51,308 bases of DNA from Candidatus Gastranaerophilales bacterium. GTDB taxonomy: Bacteria > Cyanobacteriota > Vampirovibrionia > Gastranaerophilales > Gastranaerophilaceae. Position numbers and translations under genes: made by a program. Below, piece after piece: positions 1-41,506 of this stretch. Numbering within the stretch: position 1 is the stretch's first letter; the number at the start of each line of letters is the position of its first letter. Location of the stretch: positions 1 through 51,308 of the forward strand of contig CALUWJ010000014.1 of the NCBI GenBank assembly GCA_944324455.1. The letters are read 5' to 3'. A model generated the notes under the pieces. The model was not told the origin of the DNA and ran no database searches. It saw nothing but the letters and a program-made list of their open reading frames with translations.

Positions 1-360
1 AATTTGAAACGTCGCTTTAAAAATGTTCCAGTGGCTTGCTCAACGCAAGCCACTTGGGAACACCCGCTTGCGCTTTCTTCCGGCTGTGGGTATTTCGGCT
101 CTGTTTGGCTAAGGTCGCCAAACAGCCTCAATTATCCTACGCCGGTTTCGTACGGTTACAACAAAAGCAAGTTCAACACTTGCTTTTGTTTTCACACACG
201 GCTCACGCTTTTAAGTTCGCTCGTTTATTTGGGTACGGTATCCGCTCTGTCCGCCAGTCCTCAACGGACTGCCGTCACGAGCTGCACACACCACTGCCCC
301 AAACTTCGCTCACTAAGTTTGCCCTGCAAACTAAAGTTCGCTCGTTTGGGGTGATTTTCA
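1..360. repeat. Repeat block R1 (modular palindromes, cut by window edge)
   Basis: This stretch is clearly GC-richer than its surroundings and I read it as non-coding. It holds hairpins at 30-54 (10-bp stem, loop TCAAC), 161-189 (12-bp stem, loop TCAAC), 255-271 (CAGTCC/GGACTG, loop TCAAC) and a nested palindrome at about 295-352 bounded by CCCCAAAC and GTTTGGGG. Read on the minus strand the loops are GTTGA and the flanks (CGTGACGG, GCGGACAGAGCG, GCGACGT) match block R3 at 37690-38970. Bases 1-15 are the start of another module (GCGACGTTTCAAATT on the minus strand) whose rest lies outside the window. Long open frames across it are by-products of the GC-rich repeat. Confidence 0.85.
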
Positions 361-7114: not shown

Positions 7115-8386
7115 ATGATTGAAAGATATTCAAGAGAAGAAATTTCTCAAATTTGGGAATTGGATAAAAAATTTTCATATTATTTAGAAGTTGAACTTGC
7201 TGTTATTAAAGCGCAAGTTGAATTAGGTAATTTTAGCTCTGAAATATATGAAAACATTAAAAACACAGCAAAATTTGACGTTAAAAGAATTGATGAAATA
7301 GAAAAGATAACTCGTCATGATGTTATTGCTTTTTTAGAAAATGTTAATGAAAATGTTGATAGAAAATTTTCACCATATATTCATAAAGGCTTAACCAGTT
7401 CTGATGTTATTGATACTGCTTTTGCGCTTCAAATTAAAGATTCATCTAAAATTATCAACAAAGATTTAGATGAATTAATTGAAGTAGTGAAAAATCTTGC
7501 TTTTAAACATAAACATACGGTTTGCTTAGGAAGAAGCCATGGGATTGGGGCTGAAGTTATAACCTTTGGGTTTAAATTACTAAATTTATTAGATATGCTA
7601 AAAAGAGCAAAAGATAGATTTAACTATGCTCTTAATGATATTTTAGTAGGGCAGATTTCAGGGCCTTGCGGAACATATTCAAATATTGACCCAGAGGTTG
7701 AAGAAAAAACTTGTAAAATTTTAGGTTTAAAACCTGCTAAAATTTCAACCCAAGTTATAGCTAGAGATAGACATGCTGCTTATATTCAAGCGATTTCATT
7801 AATAGGGGCAGTAATTGAGAGTTTTTCTATTGAAATAAGACACTTACAACGCTTTGAAGTGGTTGAAGTTGAAGAAGGTTTTTCAAACGGACAAAAAGGC
7901 TCATCTGCTATGCCTCATAAGAAAAACCCAATTGCAAGCGAAAATCTTTCAGGTTTAGCAAGAGTTTTAAGAAGTAACACAATTTCAGCTATGGAAAATA
8001 TCGCCCTTTGGCATGAAAGAGATATTTCTCATTCATCAGTTGAGAGGATTATTTTCCCTGATAGCACCATTTTAATTGATTATATGCTTCATAGGTTTAA
8101 AGGAGTATTGGAAAATCTTGTTATAAAAGAAAAAAATATGATAAATAACATAGACAGATACGGCGGAATTATTTATTCTCAAAGCTGTTTATTAAAACTT
8201 TTAGATTATAATATGACCCGAGAAGAAGCCTATAAAATCGTTCAAAAAGAAGCTCTTGAAGCATTTAATAATAACGGCAGCTTTAAAGAAGCTATGAAAA
8301 AACATTTATCAGATGCTGACATTAATGAATGTTTTAATCAAGAAAAATATCTAAAAAATATTGATAAAATTTTTGACAGATTTTAA
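7115..8386 (+). CDS. purB: Adenylosuccinate lyase
   Basis: A 423-aa fumarase/aspartase-superfamily lyase that releases fumarate from SAICAR and adenylosuccinate in purine synthesis. The family signature SSAMPHKKNPI sits near residue 265; TSSDVIDTAFALQ and GRSHGIGAE carry the other active-site segments; the order and length match PurB. It is transcribed alone from a leaderless-type promoter. The downstream gap is repeat block R2. purH is also in the window (20066), but purB is not linked to it. Confidence 0.96.
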   Translation: MIERYSREEISQIWELDKKFSYYLEVELAVIKAQVELGNFSSEIYENIKNTAKFDVKRIDEIEKITRHDVIAFLENVNENVDRKFSPYIHKGLTSSDVIDTAFALQIKDSSKIINKDLDELIEVVKNLAFKHKHTVCLGRSHGIGAEVITFGFKLLNLLDMLKRAKDRFNYALNDILVGQISGPCGTYSNIDPEVEEKTCKILGLKPAKISTQVIARDRHAAYIQAISLIGAVIESFSIEIRHLQRFEVVEVEEGFSNGQKGSSAMPHKKNPIASENLSGLARVLRSNTISAMENIALWHERDISHSSVERIIFPDSTILIDYMLHRFKGVLENLVIKEKNMINNIDRYGGIIYSQSCLLKLLDYNMTREEAYKIVQKEALEAFNNNGSFKEAMKKHLSDADINECFNQEKYLKNIDKIFDRF

Positions 8387-8418: not shown

Positions 8419-9110
8419 TTTTTGCTCCTGTGGAAATCAAAGATTTCCACGTCGCTCATCAACAGTTTCAGCCTAAAAATGACAATGCTCCACGCATTGT
8501 CATTTTTTTAACGGCTTTCACTCTGGCTTACGCTTTTAAGCTTCAAAAGGTTTGCTCCTGAGGAGTTTTGCTAAAGCAAAACTCTTACGTCGCCGTAGTA
8601 CGGTATTCGCACTTGGCACGAGCTCCACGCTCCTGCCTGCGTGCTCCACACACTTCTGCCTTTTTCGCTTTCGCTAAGTCGAGTTTGGCTATCGCTTTTT
8701 TCTGGCTGTGGGTATCTCGACTCTGTTCGGCTAAAGACGCCTTACAGTCTCGATATCCTACGCACCCCAAGGGTGTTTCCAATCTCTAAGCTCACAAGTT
8801 CGCTAAGAGATTGTGGGCACCAGCTATCAATAGTTACGACCAAAATTCAACATTTTGGTCTTCACTCTGGCTTACGCTTTTTTGCTCCTGTGGAAATCAA
8901 AGATTTCCACGTCGCTCATCAACAGTTTCAGCCTAAAAATGACAATGCTCCACGCATTGTCATTTTTTTAACGGCTTTCACTCTGGCTTACGCTTTTAAG
9001 CTTCAAAAGGAGTACGGTATTCGCACTTGGCACGAGCTCCACGCTCCTGCCTGCGTGCTCCACACACTTCTGCCTTTTTCGCTTTCGCTAAGTCCGTCGG
9101 ACTATAGCTC
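8419..9110. repeat. Repeat block R2 (modular palindromes with long direct repeats)
   Basis: A GC-richer non-coding block filling the purB-lyase gap. A 130-bp segment occurs identically at 8421-8550 and 8881-9010, and an 84-bp segment at 8597-8680 and 9011-9094. Hairpins include 8430-8450 (GTGGAAATC/GATTTCCAC, loop AAA), 8475-8507 (14-bp stem, loop TCCAC; copy at 8935-8967), 8563-8584 (GAGTTTTGCT/AGCAAAACTC), 8620-8632 (GAGC/GCTC, loop TCCAC) and 8838-8860 (GACCAAAAT/ATTTTGGTC, loop TCAAC). A framework hairpin at 8781-8812 (AATCTCT/AGAGATT) matches one in R3 with different paired bases. Read on the minus strand the flanks match R1 and R3. Open frames crossing it are not supported as genes. Confidence 0.88.
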
Positions 9111-10361
9111 AAGCTTCAAAAGGTTTTCTACTACGCCCTTTAGGGCAATTTTAACATGAAAATAGCTCAATCCGCCTTGCATATATATTGCCCAAGGCTC
9201 TCTTGTGGGGCCGTCTGCTGATAGTTCAATAGTTGAACCTTCGATAAAACTTCCCCCTGCCATTAAAAGATTACAATCATACCCCGGAACCGTATCAGGG
9301 ATTGGTGTTAAATAACTTTCAACAGGTGAATACCTTTGCACCATAGCGCAAAATGCTTGTTGTTCTTTTTCGTTATTAAATTGAATAGTTTGGATGATAT
9401 CCGTTCTTTTTGTATTTGAAGATGGAAAAGTGATAAATCCCATATCTTCAAAGACTTTTGCCGCTAAAATTGCGCCTTTATGAGCATTTGAAGTAATAGA
9501 AGGCGCCATAAAAAACCCTTGAAGCATTATTCTTGTTTGATTATGCATAGCGCCGCCCTCAGCACCTATCCCAGGGGCAGTCAGTCTTCTTGCTGCCATA
9601 TCAACATATTTTTTCTTACCTGCAATATAACCGCCTGCCTCAACAATACCGCCGCCGGGGTTTTTAATTAAACTTCCTGCAATTAAATCAGCACCAACTT
9701 CAGTTGGTTCTTGTTTTTCTATAAATTCGCCATAGCAATTATCGACAAAACAGCATATTTCAGGATTTTTATTTTTGACAATTTTAATTATTTTCTCAAT
9801 ATCTGCTATACTCAAAGGTTTTCTTAAAGAATATCCTCTTGAGCGTTGAATTAAAACCATTTTTGTATCAGGCAAAAGATATTTTTCAATATTTTCATAA
9901 TCAACATCAAGCCCATCTTTTAAAGGAACTTCAGAATATTTTACCCCATGACCCATTAGGCTTGTGTCAAAATCATCGCAATTTTCTCTACATCCGATAA
10001 TTTGCTGCATTGTGTCATAAGGTTCACCTGCAATAGAAACAAGCCTATCACCGTGTCTTAAAACTCCAAAAAGAGCGCAAGCTATCGTGTGAGAGCCTGA
10101 AACAAAATGAGGTCTAACTATTGCAGCTTCTGTTTTAAAAGTATCAGCAAAAACTTTATCTAGGGCTTCTCTACCTATATCATCGTGCCCGTAACCGGTT
10201 ACTGTGTAGAAATGTTCTTCACCGATTTTATTATTATAAAATGCGTCTAAAACCTTTTTTTGATTGTATTCTGTTATTTCATCAATATATTCAAATATAT
10301 CTTTAATTGAATTGTGTGCTTTATCTACTATTTCATTTGCTTTTAATTTTAAATCTTCCAT
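9102..10361 (-). CDS. Methionine gamma-lyase family (YnbB-like, PLP-dependent) protein
   Basis: A 419-aa fold-type I PLP enzyme of the family also labelled 'aluminium resistance protein' and found in Firmicutes and Cyanobacteria. Family segments visible are VTGYGHDDIGREALDK, RPHFVSGSHTIACALFG, GEPYDTMQQIIG, CFVDNCYGEF with the PLP aspartate, and GSLIKNPGGG with the probable Schiff-base lysine. The substrate is probably a sulfur amino acid; this is family knowledge, not proven here. AAGGAA precedes the ATG and an extended -10 TGCTAGAAT (minus strand, 10387-10394) lies upstream. The last codons (LLKLEL, stop) are written in the AAGCTTCAAAAGG segment shared with repeat block R2. Confidence 0.88.
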   Translation of the reverse strand: MEDLKLKANEIVDKAHNSIKDIFEYIDEITEYNQKKVLDAFYNNKIGEEHFYTVTGYGHDDIGREALDKVFADTFKTEAAIVRPHFVSGSHTIACALFGVLRHGDRLVSIAGEPYDTMQQIIGCRENCDDFDTSLMGHGVKYSEVPLKDGLDVDYENIEKYLLPDTKMVLIQRSRGYSLRKPLSIADIEKIIKIVKNKNPEICCFVDNCYGEFIEKQEPTEVGADLIAGSLIKNPGGGIVEAGGYIAGKKKYVDMAARRLTAPGIGAEGGAMHNQTRIMLQGFFMAPSITSNAHKGAILAAKVFEDMGFITFPSSNTKRTDIIQTIQFNNEKEQQAFCAMVQRYSPVESYLTPIPDTVPGYDCNLLMAGGSFIEGSTIELSADGPTREPWAIYMQGGLSYFHVKIALKGVVENLLKLEL

Positions 10362-35847: not shown

Positions 35848-37689
35848 ATGAATATTCTTCTTATAGTAGGATTAGTATTATTTGCTTGCACAATCACATG
35901 GATATATGTGTTATTTGTTTCAAGCACCATAAATGATAATAAAAAAAAAGAAGTGCCTCAAGAAACACATGTTGATGATGCGCTTGAACGCTGCAAAAAA
36001 CTTTTTAATCAAGGATTGCATGCTGAATTACAAAGATATGCACAACGTGAATTATCTAAAAATTATGGCGATGTTGAATTAAGAAAAATTTTAGCTCAAT
36101 CTTTAATGTTATCAGGCAATGAACAAATGGCAATTATGCACTATGAGGCAATTTTATCCATTGCTCCTTATGATGTCAAAACGCAAGAATTATTAGCGCA
36201 ATATTATTGTGAAAATGGTCCAAAATCAAGAGCAATAGAACTTTATGAGCAAATTTTAATGTATGATGGCGGAAATGTCCACGCTGTTGAAACATTATCA
36301 AAATTATATGAAGAAACTCAAAACTACGAAAAAGCAATAGAAACCTATAAAATGCTTATAGACGCTGAAATTGACGAACAAAGAAAAATAGAACTTGAAT
36401 ATACTTTAGCAGATTTATATATTAAAATTGGCGATAATGAAAATGCATTTAATTCTTATGAAATAATTCATAAAAGCGACCCTGAAAATCTTGAAATAAT
36501 GATTGTTTTAGCTGATTTAGCTTATAAAAACAGCTATTGGCAAGATTGCCTAAAATATTATAAAAAAATTATTTCTATTGTTGGGGATGATTTTGAAATT
36601 TTGGAAAAAATTGCCCAAATTCAAGTTACACTCGAAAATTGGCCCGAGGCAGTAAGCGCATATAAGAAAATTATTTCTCTTGAAGATTCTGATAGCGTTA
36701 ATTATTTGTATCACCAAAATGAATTATGTAATGCTATGCTTAAAAACAAGCAATATGATGAAGCAATTGATTTATTAAAAGATTTATTGGCACAAAATCC
36801 TAAAGAAACATCTTTTGCTTTTACATTAGCTCAAGCATATACTATGATTGGTGAATTTAGGATAGGCGTTCAGTTATATAACAAACTTTTAGAAGATTTA
36901 CCACCTGAACAAAGTGAAATTATTATTAAATATATTTCTAATTTAATATGTGCATGGGCTCAAGATTTATTTAAAAAGGGTGATTACAACCAAGCATTTG
37001 ATAAATTTTTTGAAGCGCTTAAATATAATGAAGAAAATGATGAAGTTTATTTTGAGTTAGGCAGATGCAATTATCACATTAAAAGCTTCCAAGACGCTAT
37101 TGCACATTTTAAAAGAGCCATTGCAATTAAACCTCAAAATTCAATGTATTATTTTGGTTTAGGATGCGCCCAAGATGAACTGGGTAACATAAAAGCAGCA
37201 AAGCAAGCTTTTTATGACGCAATAAATATTGACCCTATGAATATAAAAGCAAGAATTGCTTATGCAATTTCTTTAACAAAAGAACTGGAATATGCTCAAA
37301 GTATAGAGCAATTTTCTGAAGTGTTAAAATATATTCCTGATAATGCAGATACTTTATATAATCTTGCGTTGGCTTATGAGCTTGTTGGAGATATTGAAAG
37401 AGCAATCAAATTCTACAAAAAAGCGATTGATGTTGATAATGAACACAAAGAAGCTAATCATAATATAGAGTTATTATTGGGTGAACCTTATTCACCACAT
37501 AAAAGCATTGAATATATTGATGATACACCCAAAACCGAAGAAAAAGTTGAAGAAAAAACTGAAGAAAAACAAGAAATAATTGATGTTCAAGAAGTGCCGG
37601 AACCTAGTGAAGAAACTATAATTGAAAATACAGAAATTCAACCCGAACAAGATACACAAATTAATCCTCAAGACAGCCTATTTAGCTAA
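35848..37689 (+). CDS. Membrane-anchored tetratricopeptide-repeat protein
   Basis: A 613-aa protein with one N-terminal membrane segment (residues 2-25, ILLIVGLVLFACTITWIYVL) and then about a dozen 34-residue TPR units from residue 45 to 545. Typical units are EVYFELGRCNYHIKSFQDAI and DTLYNLALAYELVGDIERAI. A Glu/Pro/Thr-rich disordered tail ends the protein. TPRs scaffold protein complexes, and the N-in anchor would place them in the cytoplasm or outside depending on topology; the role is unknown. Its stop lies 2-3 bases before repeat block R3. Confidence 0.85.
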   Translation: MNILLIVGLVLFACTITWIYVLFVSSTINDNKKKEVPQETHVDDALERCKKLFNQGLHAELQRYAQRELSKNYGDVELRKILAQSLMLSGNEQMAIMHYEAILSIAPYDVKTQELLAQYYCENGPKSRAIELYEQILMYDGGNVHAVETLSKLYEETQNYEKAIETYKMLIDAEIDEQRKIELEYTLADLYIKIGDNENAFNSYEIIHKSDPENLEIMIVLADLAYKNSYWQDCLKYYKKIISIVGDDFEILEKIAQIQVTLENWPEAVSAYKKIISLEDSDSVNYLYHQNELCNAMLKNKQYDEAIDLLKDLLAQNPKETSFAFTLAQAYTMIGEFRIGVQLYNKLLEDLPPEQSEIIIKYISNLICAWAQDLFKKGDYNQAFDKFFEALKYNEENDEVYFELGRCNYHIKSFQDAIAHFKRAIAIKPQNSMYYFGLGCAQDELGNIKAAKQAFYDAINIDPMNIKARIAYAISLTKELEYAQSIEQFSEVLKYIPDNADTLYNLALAYELVGDIERAIKFYKKAIDVDNEHKEANHNIELLLGEPYSPHKSIEYIDDTPKTEEKVEEKTEEKQEIIDVQEVPEPSEETIIENTEIQPEQDTQINPQDSLFS

Positions 37690-38970
37690 GGAAATGCACT
37701 AAAACCGTAGCGCGACTGCGCTAGGTTTTAGAAATGACCCCATAGGATGTGAGGGCGTGATGTCAAAACGTTGAGTTTTGACAGACAGCCCGACACTGGA
37801 CTCAAGGAAATGAAGTAATTTTCTTACAGCACTTGTGTGCTGTTGAAAATTACGAATGACCCCATGGTGTGTGAGCTCGTGACGGCAGTCCGTTGAGGAC
37901 TGGCGGACAGAGCGAAACCGTACCTTGGCGACGTGGGACGAAGTCCCTCAGGAGCTAAGGAAATGAAGTAAAACCGTAGCGCGACTGCGCTAGGTTTTAG
38001 AAATGACCCCATAGGATGTGAGCAATTGCACAGCAAGCGTGGAGCTTGGTAGGCTATTGCGATGCCCACAATCCGTTAGCGAACTTGTGAGCTTTACGGA
38101 TTGGAAACACCCTTGGGGTGCGCGGGACAAAGTCCCTCAGGAGCAATGGAAATGAAGTAATTTTCTTACAGCACTTGTGTGCTGTTGAAAATTACGAATG
38201 ACCCCATAGGATGTGAGGGCGTGATGTCAAAACGTTGAGTTTTGACAGACAGCCCGACACTGGACTCAAGGAAATGCACTAAAACCGTAGCGCGACTGCG
38301 CTAGGTTTTAGAAATGACCCCATAGGATGTGAGGGCGTGACGGCATTTCAAACATCTTTTGCTTTTAAGTAATTGTTCACTTTTCTTCTTTTTTCTCTCA
38401 AACGGCGAAATGAAAAAGAGGGCGCTAGCCGATGTTCCCAAGTGGCTTGCGTTGAGCAAGACACTGGAACATTACAATAGCGACGTTTCAAATTCTTGCC
38501 GTAAGGCGAATTTGACAGGAGCAAAAGAAAAGTGAACCGAAAAGAAGAAAACTTCCGCCTGCCTCATAATTATTGGGCTTACGCCCAAATTATACATATT
38601 TTCTTTAGTAAAACTTAATAGATAACAAATATTTATAGCACGACTGCGCTAGGTTTTAGAAATGACCCCATAGGATGTGAGCAATTGCACAGCAAGCGTG
38701 GAGCTTGGTGGGCTATTGCGATGCCCACAATCCGTTAGCGAACTTGTGAGCTTTACGGATTGGAAACACCCTTGGGGTGCGCGGGACAAAGTCCCTCAGG
38801 AGCAATGGAAATGAAGTAATTTTCTTACAGCACTTGTGTGCTGTTGAAAATTACGAATGACCCCATAGGATGTGAGGGCGTGATGTCAAAACGTTGAGTT
38901 TTGACAGACAGCCCGACACTGGACTCAAGGAAATGAAGTAATTTTCTTACAGCACTTGTGTGCTGTTGAA
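37690..38970. repeat. Repeat block R3 (array of modular palindromic units)
   Basis: Units begin GGAAATG at 37690, 37806, 37959, 38148, 38270, 38807 and 38929. Each continues with one of two palindromes (CTAAAACC...GGTTTTAG, e.g. 37699-37731; or GTAATTTTC...GAAAATTAC, e.g. 37815-37853), then ACCCCATAGGATGTGAG, then a body of one of three kinds. Bodies hold hairpins with constant loop GTTGA or GTGGA and a GGGAC/GTCCC hairpin ending CTCAGGAGC. A 300-bp stretch (37977-38276) recurs at 38636-38935 with two differences that I can see. The array is interrupted by a different insert at about 38341-38635. GC is higher than in the flanks and I see no supported gene. Confidence 0.9.
38375..38537. mobile_element. 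MITE-like insert inside repeat block R3
   Basis: GTTCACTTTTCT (38375-38386) and its exact complement AGAAAAGTGAAC (38526-38537) bracket about 163 bases. Inside are two framework hairpins: AGTGGCTTGC/GCAAGACACT with loop GTTGA (38441-38465), also found in R1, and CAAATTC...GAATTTG (38489-38514) between GCGACGT and ACAGGAGC. No transposase is encoded and I could not define target-site duplications. Confidence 0.5.
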
Positions 38971-40083
38971 TTTAAAATTCAAAACTTTTTTCGCAATTTC
39001 ATTTAAATTGCAATTTTCATCATAAAAACCCCAATCGGAAAGAATTTGATTTTGTAATTTTTCAGTCTCAAGAGCCAATCTTGGATATTCTGCATTTAAT
39101 TTATCAAAAAGTTTATTTACGTAAGCCATTTTTTTTAAAGTAAAGCCTGTCTTTTTTAAGCTTAAAACTTTTTTAATATGGGGAAAATTCTTTAATATTT
39201 CCGATTTATCTTCCATCTCCTTTATACATTTTGCATACGCAATTTTTCTTGCTGTTAAAGTAATTTGTTGTTTTAATTGATTTTTAATATATTGTTGTCG
39301 GCTTTCACTTATGGTTTGAAAACGCTTATCTCTAGCTTTTTGTGACCGCATATTTTTAACAAGCCTTTCCCTAAATTCCTCATCTTGCCACTTTTCAAGC
39401 ATAACTTTTGAACGTTGCTTCCTAAAATCAGAAACATTCATGCTATTTACAGTTTTTGTTCTATATTCTTCATTTTGCCATATTTCTTTGCGTGCTTTAG
39501 ACATTCTGTTTTTTGTAATTAAAGATTCATAATCATCATTCATAGAAATATTTAAAAATTTAAACATTTTTTTAATAGTTTGATAACTTAAATAAAAATA
39601 ATCTTCATTGCAACCGCTTTTAAGAGGAGTCAATTCACCGATATATTTTTTTAAAAACACTAAAGAAGCATTTTCTTTATTTAAACCCTCTATTTGACCT
39701 TTTGCAATTTGTTTTGGAGCATAAAAACTAATAGAAGATAAATCAACATCTTTTAAATCAACAACATCTCTAAATTCAGGATATAGTTCTTTTGCTTCAT
39801 CTAGAGTTTTACAGTTTAATAAAGAAGCATAATATTCTTTATGTAAATCAATAAGATTATTTTTATCATCAATATAAGATAAAATATATTCTCTTAAACC
39901 ATCTGATAAAAAAGCGTCTTTTTCTAAATCTTTTACTTGTTGAACTAAAGATTTACCGCTAAAAGAAATAGTATCAGATGATAAATTATATTGATATTTA
40001 ATAGGACTAATTGTTTGATTATTTTGATTTTTATTGATATTTTGGGGTTTTAAAAAATTAATTTGTCTAAATTGGAGTTTCAT
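38947..40083 (-). CDS. RWQD-repeat protein, copy 2 (unknown function)
   Basis: A 378-aa basic protein, paralogue of the gene just upstream. The N-terminal ~190 residues (start MKLQFRQINFLKPQNI; NLSSDTISFSGKS; CKTLDEAKELYPEFRDVV) are nearly identical between the two. The middle holds divergent repeats (KEIWQNEEYRTKTVNSMN, LEKWQDEEFRERLVKNMR) resembling the short helical DNA-binding repeats of homing-endonuclease tails (NUMOD-like); no HNH or GIY-YIG catalytic motif is seen. The end has ILSDWGFYDENCN, shared by both. The last six codons (NSTQVL, stop) are inside a palindrome of repeat block R3. The ATG lies 4 bases after the upstream stop. Confidence 0.7.
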   Translation of the reverse strand: MKLQFRQINFLKPQNINKNQNNQTISPIKYQYNLSSDTISFSGKSLVQQVKDLEKDAFLSDGLREYILSYIDDKNNLIDLHKEYYASLLNCKTLDEAKELYPEFRDVVDLKDVDLSSISFYAPKQIAKGQIEGLNKENASLVFLKKYIGELTPLKSGCNEDYFYLSYQTIKKMFKFLNISMNDDYESLITKNRMSKARKEIWQNEEYRTKTVNSMNVSDFRKQRSKVMLEKWQDEEFRERLVKNMRSQKARDKRFQTISESRQQYIKNQLKQQITLTARKIAYAKCIKEMEDKSEILKNFPHIKKVLSLKKTGFTLKKMAYVNKLFDKLNAEYPRLALETEKLQNQILSDWGFYDENCNLNEIAKKVLNFKFNSTQVL

Positions 40084-40087
40084 ATAA

Positions 40088-41347
40088 TTACTTTCTGTTA
40101 TTTTTGTTATCAGGGTCTAATTTTTGAGCTTGCTCTACTAATTTTTCAAAATTAGTATCTTCATCATAAAAACCCCAATCAGATAAAATTTGACTTTGTA
40201 TTTCTTTAACTTTCTGAATTTCTTCCGGATACTTTTGGCTCATTTCTTCAAGACACATATTTACATATCTTATTTTATTATAAGTTAAGCCTAATTTTGT
40301 TTTAGAAATAATATCTTTAAATCGAGAATCTGTTTCTAGAGTTTCTTGATATATTTGTTGAGTTTCAGGACTTTGATTAAAAGCAAGCTTTGTTGCAATT
40401 ATTTTGATATTTTCTTGTATTACCTTAATTCGTTTTTCCGAACTATTTGTAGCATGCTTAGCTTTTGTTTCTGGTGAATTAAGGCTTTTTAGAGTTTTTT
40501 CTCTAAATTCTTTATCCTGCCATCTTGCTTTAATAGCTTCAGATTGTCTTAATCTCATTTCACCATCTTGCCATCTTGCTTTAGCAGCTTCAGATTGTCT
40601 AGCTTTTATTTCAGGTGAATTCATACTATTAATAGTTTTTTCTCTAAATTCCTCATCTTGCCATCTTGCTTTAGCAGCTTCTGACAGCTTAGCTTTTGTT
40701 TCTGGTGAATTAAGGCTTTTTAGAGTTTTTTCTCTAAATTCTTTATCCTGCCATCTTGCTTTAGCAGCTTCAGACTTTCTGTTTTTTGTAATTAAAGATT
40801 CATAATCATCATTCATAGAAATATTTAAAAACTTAAGTATTTTTTTAATAGTAGAATTATTCAAATGAAAATAGTCTTCATTACCTATATTGTTAAGTGG
40901 TATTAATTCTCCAATATATTTTTTTAAAAACACTAAAGAAGCATTTTCTTTATTCAAACCCTCTATTTGACCTTTTGCAATTTGTTTTGGAGCATAAAAA
41001 CTAATAGAAGATAAATCAACATCTTTTAAATCAACAACATCTCTAAATTCAGGATATAGTTCTTTTGCTTCATCTAGAGTTTTACAGTTTAATAAAGAAG
41101 CATAATATTCTTTATGTAAATCAATAAGATTATTTTTATCATCAATATAAGATAAAATATATTCTCTTAAACCATCTGATAAAAAAGCGTCTTTTTCTAA
41201 ATCTTTTACTTGTTGAACTAAAGATTTACCGCTAAAAGAAATAGTATCAGATGATAAATTATATTGATATTTAATAGGGTTAGTTGTTTTAGTGTTTTTA
41301 ATATTTTGAGGTTTTAAAAAATTAATTTGTCTAAATTGGAGTTTCAT
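40088..41347 (-). CDS. RWQD-repeat protein, copy 1 (unknown function)
   Basis: A 419-aa basic protein. After the shared N-terminal domain it carries four tandem ~30-residue repeats beginning SEAAKARWQDKEFREKTLK (about residues 190-295; the third is shortened to 17 residues), then a helical tail ending ILSDWGFYDEDTN. The repeat looks like a NUMOD-type DNA-binding motif, but that is inference, and no nuclease motif is visible. I start it at ATG 41347, with AAAGGT upstream; 12 more in-frame residues reach 41383. Its end also supplies the ribosome site for copy 2. Confidence 0.72.
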   Translation of the reverse strand: MKLQFRQINFLKPQNIKNTKTTNPIKYQYNLSSDTISFSGKSLVQQVKDLEKDAFLSDGLREYILSYIDDKNNLIDLHKEYYASLLNCKTLDEAKELYPEFRDVVDLKDVDLSSISFYAPKQIAKGQIEGLNKENASLVFLKKYIGELIPLNNIGNEDYFHLNNSTIKKILKFLNISMNDDYESLITKNRKSEAAKARWQDKEFREKTLKSLNSPETKAKLSEAAKARWQDEEFREKTINSMNSPEIKARQSEAAKARWQDGEMRLRQSEAIKARWQDKEFREKTLKSLNSPETKAKHATNSSEKRIKVIQENIKIIATKLAFNQSPETQQIYQETLETDSRFKDIISKTKLGLTYNKIRYVNMCLEEMSQKYPEEIQKVKEIQSQILSDWGFYDEDTNFEKLVEQAQKLDPDNKNNRK

Positions 41348-41506
41348 ATAATTACCTTTCATAACTAATTTATTAACACTCATAAAAAAAATAATTTGCC
41401 ATAATTCTTTTAAACAAATTTTACAATAACCAATATTTTAGGCTTTTTTAGTTGATTTTTAAAAATATCTTTTGTTATAATTTCGATATAGAACGATGGA
41501 TTTTAT

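Follow-up and report, generated by a model that had tools for sequence, protein, structure and literature searches.

The repeats described here are probably a family of non-coding, structured, mobile hairpin cassettes (hp0, hp1, hp2 and B), which would nest within one another and be shuffled by recombination, like the palindromic elements of organelles. The hairpins occupying one slot at the 3' end of groEL were confirmed to be truly interchangeable, hp0, hp1 and hp2 combine freely, and a constraint of the fold on one strand is supported. The host of the repeats is a Candidatus Gastranaerophilales gut bacterium represented by a 1.76-Mb MAG (G000), and the window, meaning the whole stretch of DNA analysed, is its contig C14, 51,308 bp long with 29.6% GC.

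A sequence-only reading of the window had proposed that the same framework segments recur in three gaps. These three repeat gaps are real and far beyond chance; 10 of the 10 hp1 units detected in the window by covariance model R1 fall inside them, the best with an E-value of about 1e-16. A hairpin unit is indeed common to the three, but the six literal strings that had been listed are not all present in each: GCGACGT is common to the three gaps, CAGGAGC is shared by the main block and 8419-9160, CGTGACGG and GCGGACAGAGCG occur in the main block and also in block 1-360 on the minus strand, while GGAAATG (seven copies) and ACCCCATAGGATGTGAG (six), among the three blocks, are found in the main block only. 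The limits of the gaps were corrected to 37689-38977, 8419-9160 and 1-360, the last of which begins at the contig end. The slot between GGAAATG and ACCCCAT holds either the K1 or the K2 palindrome, just as had been read. The features of the window are as follows.

37689..38977, + strand: main repeat block between two convergent genes; its start coincides with the stop codon of a TPR gene (35848-37689)
1..360, - strand: repeat block at the contig start, with hp1 units at 232-292 and 149-200
8419..9160, - strand: repeat block between the convergent purB-like (7115-8386) and Met_gamma_lyase (9102-10361) genes
Inside 8419..9160, - strand: hp1 at 8597-8654 and 9011-9068; hp2 at 8424-8455, 8554-8593 and 8884-8915; B-like sequence at 8761-8819
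37700..37730, + strand: K1 palindrome (hp0 slot), TAAAACC..GGTTTTA; also 37969-37999 and 38280-38310, truncated at 38635-38658
37816..37852, + strand: K2 palindrome (hp0 slot), TAATTTTC..GAAAATTA; also 38158-38194 and 38817-38853, truncated at 38939-38975
37744..37802, + strand: hp1 unit, AGGATGTGAG..GTTGA loop..CTGGACT (R1, 70.1 bits)
37866..37924, + strand: hp1 unit, GGTGTGTGAG..GTTGA..CCGTACC (R1, 76.2 bits)
38013..38072, + strand: hp1 unit of CAAT type, partly overlapping the start of B (R1, 24.9 bits)
38208..38266, + strand: hp1 unit (R1, 70.1 bits)
38672..38731, + strand: hp1 unit of CAAT type (R1, 28.8 bits)
38867..38925, + strand: hp1 unit (R1, 70.1 bits)
38063..38120, + strand: B module, a 58-nt double hairpin after GCGA within an A unit; second copy at 38722-38779
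37928..37955, + strand: A unit, GCGACGT-(hp2 GGGACGAAGTCCC)-CAGGAGC; more hp2 at 38118-38144, 38480-38522 and 38777-38803
38374..38537, + strand: nested element bounded by 13-nt terminal inverted repeats GTTCACTTTTCTT/AAGAAAAGTGAAC, which splits an hp1 unit and contains an A unit of its own, as read from the sequence
37977..38276, + strand: 300-bp segment, with a direct duplicate at 38636-38935 (99% identity)

On the + strand of the main block, the order of a unit is hp0, then hp1, then A. The hp0 slot is filled by K1, K2 or other stems, in which GA/GA internal loops are frequent by eye. The hp1 module starts with A or G followed by GTGTGTGA, or with AGGATGTGAG, and proceeds through a stem and an apical hairpin with the loop GTTGA, GTGGA or GATGA to CCGTAC(T/C) or CTGGACT. 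A consists of GCGACGT-hp2-CAGGAGC, in which the hp2 stems measure 5 to about 12 bp, with loops of mostly 3 nt and flanks of GCGACG and AGGAGC; 45 distinct hp2 contents were found in 75 contexts. B, the double hairpin TGCCCACAATCC..GGGGTG, is able to sit within A, and a larger unit of 177 nt spans TACTTTT to TCTCCA. Sequence resembling the nested element 38374-38537 was found in loci L003, L033 and L059. Part of the copy number of the main block is due to the recent 300-bp direct duplication. Beside the main block, on the minus strand, 38947-40083 and 40088-41383 encode tandem paralogous proteins (78% identity over 255 aa) with no Pfam match, and the first of these genes ends, final codons and stop included, within a truncated K2 palindrome.

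Interchange of hairpins is seen most directly at the groEL 3' end. Among 12 species, six carry K1 and six a K2-type palindrome there, the same palindromes as in the window, between identical flanks (GGGAATGATG and CGAATGACC), and the slot has changed at least four times on the tree of these species. Furthermore, with types assigned by hand-made patterns, the four-combination test was positive in 48 of 441 type comparisons of hp0 with hp1 and in 42 of 441 of hp1 with hp2. The sequence-only reading had named one fixed sequence without slot variation, or a match to a described repeat family, as findings that would count against it; slot content was found to vary both genome-wide and genus-wide, and no described family matched by Rfam or by the literature definitions. 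Its view of a cassette system, a nested-hairpin mobile element or a structured RNA gains support from the slot swaps, the clean insertion of B and the one-strand fold constraint. The hairpins do swap, but to call them "cargo" is too strong, because the framework itself is made of covarying hairpins and hairpins are swapped between hairpins.

The fold is maintained in spite of the variation of the stems. Across 50 distinct copies of hp1, both sides had changed in 14 of the 19 pairs, with a covariation score of 0.446 vs 0.181 for shuffled and at most 0.144 for slid partners, and the A or G at the first position pairs with the T or C at the last (GC 27, AU 22, other 1). In the absence of a strand preference, GU and AC wobbles are expected to be equal in number. 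The GU and AC counts, which represent non-independent events, were 18 and 0 in the hp1 apical stems, 5 and 0 in hp2, and 19 and 10 over the whole ungapped hp1 stem. The MFE was lower on the + strand than on the complement for 116 of 121 hp1, 22 of 22 hp2, 97 of 137 hp0 (38 higher) and 14 of 19 B sequences. The hp1 loop is of the GNNGA type and at times a GNRA tetraloop (GGGA, GAGA), and therefore points toward RNA; the triloops of hp2 would be just as suitable for single-stranded DNA. Selection probably acts on the folding of one strand, most likely that of an RNA, or else of single-stranded DNA while it is being transferred.

In its own genome the family numbers no fewer than 45 hp1 units, spread over about 22 places (44 units in the examined loci plus one on contig C17), and the query 37960-38160 matched 25 places. 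A covariance search of 192 genomes of the order, all of them MAGs in which repeats break contigs and could cause mis-joins, gave matches in 44. Genus g31 (16-22) and the genus of the host (up to at least 28 scored matches) have high copy numbers; elsewhere in the family the distribution is patchy, with single or few copies in many genera, and one marginal match lies outside the family. The lone copies of low-copy genera are often located at the tmRNA end. A BLAST-type search was positive for 23 of 24 own-genus genomes and for 0 of 15 from other families. The repeats are thus present throughout the genus, patchy in the family and essentially absent outside it. The named records with matching repeats are only Candidatus Gastranaerophilales MAGs or MAGs of an "uncultured bacterium". 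Rfam gave no match at the gathering score and none at E<=3 over the block, phages and plasmids gave no match, and viral contigs gave none to two exact patterns, a search in which divergent copies could be missed.

Insertion polymorphism was observed at corresponding places of related genomes. The rpsH-rplF gap of the ribosomal operon is empty (65-89 bp) in 14 species, filled in 11 and intermediate in 2, and the filled gaps, one of the 11 being cut by a contig end, hold different mosaics. Bootstrap trees of ribosomal proteins, with few branches well supported, place 3-4 changes of the filled state. The tRNA-Lys 3' end is empty in G017, G019 and G022 and filled in G000; an element near-identical to that of G000 follows tRNA-Ala in G020, beside the same flanking gene. 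The flanking genes of G020 and G000 are 80% identical whereas the two element-holding stretches are 95-100% identical, and the sole large difference between the elements is the lack of B in G020 (TACG^TCGCC vs TACG-B-TCGCC). In this pair, the one filled/empty pair between two species, B shows no target duplication. It follows GCGA in 26 of 35 distinct contexts (site GCGA^CG), the contexts being A units and hp0 loops of the form GCGCGA^CGCGC. The left junctions of the 177-nt unit lie directly after the CCA of tmRNA, tRNA-Ala or tRNA-Lys, or else after the CTCCA end of a related element or its own right end. Copies are also found at the 3' ends of groEL, tRNAs, tmRNA and RNase P as well as within the ribosomal operon. 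Of 133 copies overall, 85 have the same and 48 the opposite orientation to the 5' gene. As this bias is only mild, a purely mRNA-borne role is not favoured, and an obligate mRNA-sense regulator was rejected.

As to duplications and REARRANGEMENT, direct repeats of at least 18 nt were found at 71 of 135 hp1 copies vs 4 of at most 400 random window points, and these repeats are 18-123 nt long. Some of them are host sequence, such as the region upstream of tRNA-Leu in G021 or, around a related element, the species' own tmRNA end. Two of the blocks have flanking genes whose pairing differs in relatives. The gene-order junctions, which may include MAG mis-joins, coincide with elements in G000 and G017, and the junction in G022 has no element.

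Further elements were noticed in the neighbourhood of such genes. Those at the 5' ends of tRNA-Phe (L012, about 1170-1360, on contig C20 of G000) and tRNA-Leu (L320, about 440-830, in G021) contain inverted copies of the tRNA start (ACCAACTGAGCTAA; TTCCGCCACATC), with the host upstream sequence duplicated two to three times; the inverted copies hint at fold-back copying. A different element, GAACCCGCACAAGG..CGGGTTCGAGCGGGAGCGAGCTGAGG..CAAGAC, resides at the tmRNA 3' end (L023:150-280 on contig C4 of G000, and G044, G045, G069, G078 and G046), where 13-16 nt of the tmRNA end of the host itself are duplicated, the duplicated sequence varying with the host. At tRNA-Gly (L020 on contig C11 of G000; L073 in G020), copies of the 3' end of the tRNA together with a terminator alternate with the element GACTCGGCTTCGCC..CCTAGGACTAAGCAT, and the terminator variant is species-specific and common to both copies. 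In G213 (L245) the tmRNA is immediately followed by a sequence that reads like the C-terminal portion of a tyrosine integrase, which suggests the tmRNA end as a possible attachment site in the family. Another dispersed palindrome, TGTCATCCTGAACTTGTTTCAGGGTCT with its variants, is common in the same genomes (L050, L023, L052).

A search for a resident enzyme was conducted. RVT_1 is absent from 8 of 11 genus genomes, including the high-copy G041 and G021, and mobility through a resident reverse transcriptase (retroelement- or SINE-like) is thus not supported. Y1_Tnp (PF01797), present in 61 of the 192 genomes of the order, is absent from 11 of 11 genus genomes sampled, so that Y1/RAYT mobility is not supported; nor is an expanded integrase set, since tyrosine recombinases show no excess in high-copy genomes and general Phage_integrase domains number 2-6 each (2 in G176, 3 in G000). 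A CRISPR-like array was set aside, the spacers being hairpins and the repeats structured. A group II/III intron, suggested by a GUGYG-like start and twintron-like nesting, was dropped as well: Rfam detected no intron core, and at the sites examined the coding genes are uninterrupted.

In the most likely sequence of steps, whole units would insert at CCA ends and B at GCGACG, and exchange would follow. Copies may spread by a copy-and-insert step acting in trans. Hairpins would be swapped mainly by recombination over the conserved framework segments as short homologies, the long P-Q-P direct repeats could result from insertion or recombination duplicating a target hairpin, and the blocks may promote genome rearrangement; the repeats are likely to drive gene-order change in the family. 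It is possible, though put forward only tentatively, that this is a gene-free bacterial mobile element, a modular structured RNA or folded single-stranded DNA, which inserts behind the CCA of tRNA-like genes, nests at specific sites and replaces its helices through hairpin swaps, using host functions or an unknown recombinase and not RT, Y1 or a dedicated integrase.

Some of the same evidence would be accounted for without any mobile element proper, if local palindromes were duplicated, inverted and shuffled through replication template switching and unequal recombination at hairpins, and were then spread by natural transformation or recombination. Long direct duplications around units, inverted host tRNA copies in neighbouring elements (L320, L012), gene-order breakpoints at blocks and the lack of RT, Y1 or dedicated integrase all agree with such a process, but it is rather unlikely, as the 177-nt unit is found repeatedly, its ends unchanged, behind the CCA of several tRNA/tmRNA genes and in several genera, the target of B is precise, and base pairing on one strand is under purifying pressure. 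The exact position after CCA, the TCTCCA right end at which tandem units are joined, and the fixed site and orientation of B speak for site-specific recombination cassettes. In that case the gene of a tyrosine recombinase, be it Xer or the integrase of a phage or plasmid, would lie elsewhere, and the enzyme would recognise folded hairpins or a CCA core and integrate excised circles at tRNA/tmRNA ends and into each other, as integron integrases do with attC. The integrase sequence at the G213 tmRNA 3' end is in line with this, as is the finding that structure counts for more here than stem sequence, just as it does in attC sites (PMC2727003). That explanation is nonetheless unlikely in view of the few tyrosine recombinases in high-copy genomes (G176: 2, G000: 3) and of the groEL and rpsH sites and 15-123 nt duplications, which are unlike one att core.

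A functional structured RNA, for example a stabiliser or processing signal in a 3' UTR or trailer, could also be kept in many copies for the benefit of the host, with movement being incidental. This is hard to reconcile with sites empty in half of the congeners, with 48 of 133 copies antisense to the 5' gene and with content at one site that turns over between sister species, and it is judged improbable, even though the RNA-like fold with its GNRA-type loop and the positions at the 3' ends of groEL, tRNAs, tmRNA and RNase P and in the ribosomal operon would be expected of such an RNA. Elements of the IS200/IS605 type insert 3' of a tetranucleotide without target duplication. B inserts in this way, as judged from one pair, and the hairpins are strand-specific, both of which recall REPIN/IS200-like elements whose Y1 transposase has been lost or has diverged beyond the reach of the Pfam model. 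Such an origin is very doubtful, given Y1_Tnp in none of 11 genus genomes against 61 of 192 in the order, and given the 177-nt unit and long duplications, which do not fit it. The mobile hairpin cassettes remain the best explanation, and when they are set beside the known bacterial systems, each likeness is partial. Insertion 3' of a fixed tetranucleotide, in one orientation and without duplication (from the one pair), as in IS200/IS605 elements, was found for B only, and no Y1 transposase is encoded in the genome. MITEs are defined by terminal inverted repeats and a short target duplication; the 177-nt unit and B, by a reading of their ends, have no terminal inverted repeat, whereas the separate nested element 38374-38537 does have 13-nt ones. 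REPIN/RAYT elements (PMC3116915) and BIMEs are likewise dispersed intergenic palindromes arranged in mosaics, with strand-specific hairpins and non-autonomous, but a REPIN contains a conserved palindrome of 20-40 nt with an unpaired GTAG. Here, the genus has no Y1 transposase, the palindrome sequence is not conserved, stems vary freely, the GTAG of K1 is inside a paired stem, and no GTAG-tagged doublet of short palindromes is present. The Neisserial dRS3/CGTC REPs, defined by CGTC at one end, a stem of 8-9 bp, a loop of 4-5 nt and a CCA tail (PMC3733652), also form clusters with constant short repeats and have no dedicated transposase known. The stems, loops and flanks of hp2 depart from that definition in the order of tag and stem, in stem and loop lengths and in the CCA tail, and here the linkers are constant while the palindromes vary. 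Integron attC sites (PMC2727003) share conserved ends around a variable palindromic middle, recognition by fold and on one strand, and cassette exchange, but unlike them the present units have no gene cargo, three successive hairpins and insertion at tRNA ends. No description of such elements for this bacterial order or for other bacteria was found in the open literature searched, and an earlier report elsewhere is possible.

To our knowledge, palindromes that nest and shuffle have posed a puzzle in organelles, their enzyme and level of action, RNA or DNA, being unknown there. Nesting and shuffling of short palindromes and insertion polymorphism, by which organellar palindromes and GC clusters are recognised, were all found here. 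The GC clusters of yeast mitochondria merge and shuffle (PMC4478555), and the repeats resemble them in being palindromic, mobile and merging or shuffling recombination hotspots with fixed ends and many different neighbours; the clusters are reported to have flanking repeats of 2-3 nt (AG or ACT), whereas those here are 18-123 nt long, with none for B in the pair checked. The palindromes in the organelles of Volvox carteri are inserted into one another and can look tRNA-like (PMC2670323), and together with the fungal double-hairpin elements they share hairpins of about 50 nt nested into mosaics, intergenic spread, some tRNA-like folds and no gene of their own. Unlike in either, the elements here are located in a bacterial chromosome, their stems covary about a GNNGA loop that stays constant, their linkers are conserved, the CCA ends of tRNA/tmRNA genes are used for insertion, and hp0, hp1 and hp2 follow one another in an ordered layout. 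The organellar likeness is an analogy and not membership. A structural motif family outside Rfam is characteristic of an entire bacterial family. Its dozens of related species, its filled as well as empty sites, its defined ends and a measurable strand constraint make the mechanism testable. In conclusion, behaviour like that of organellar palindromes is now seen in a bacterium of the cyanobacterial sister group.
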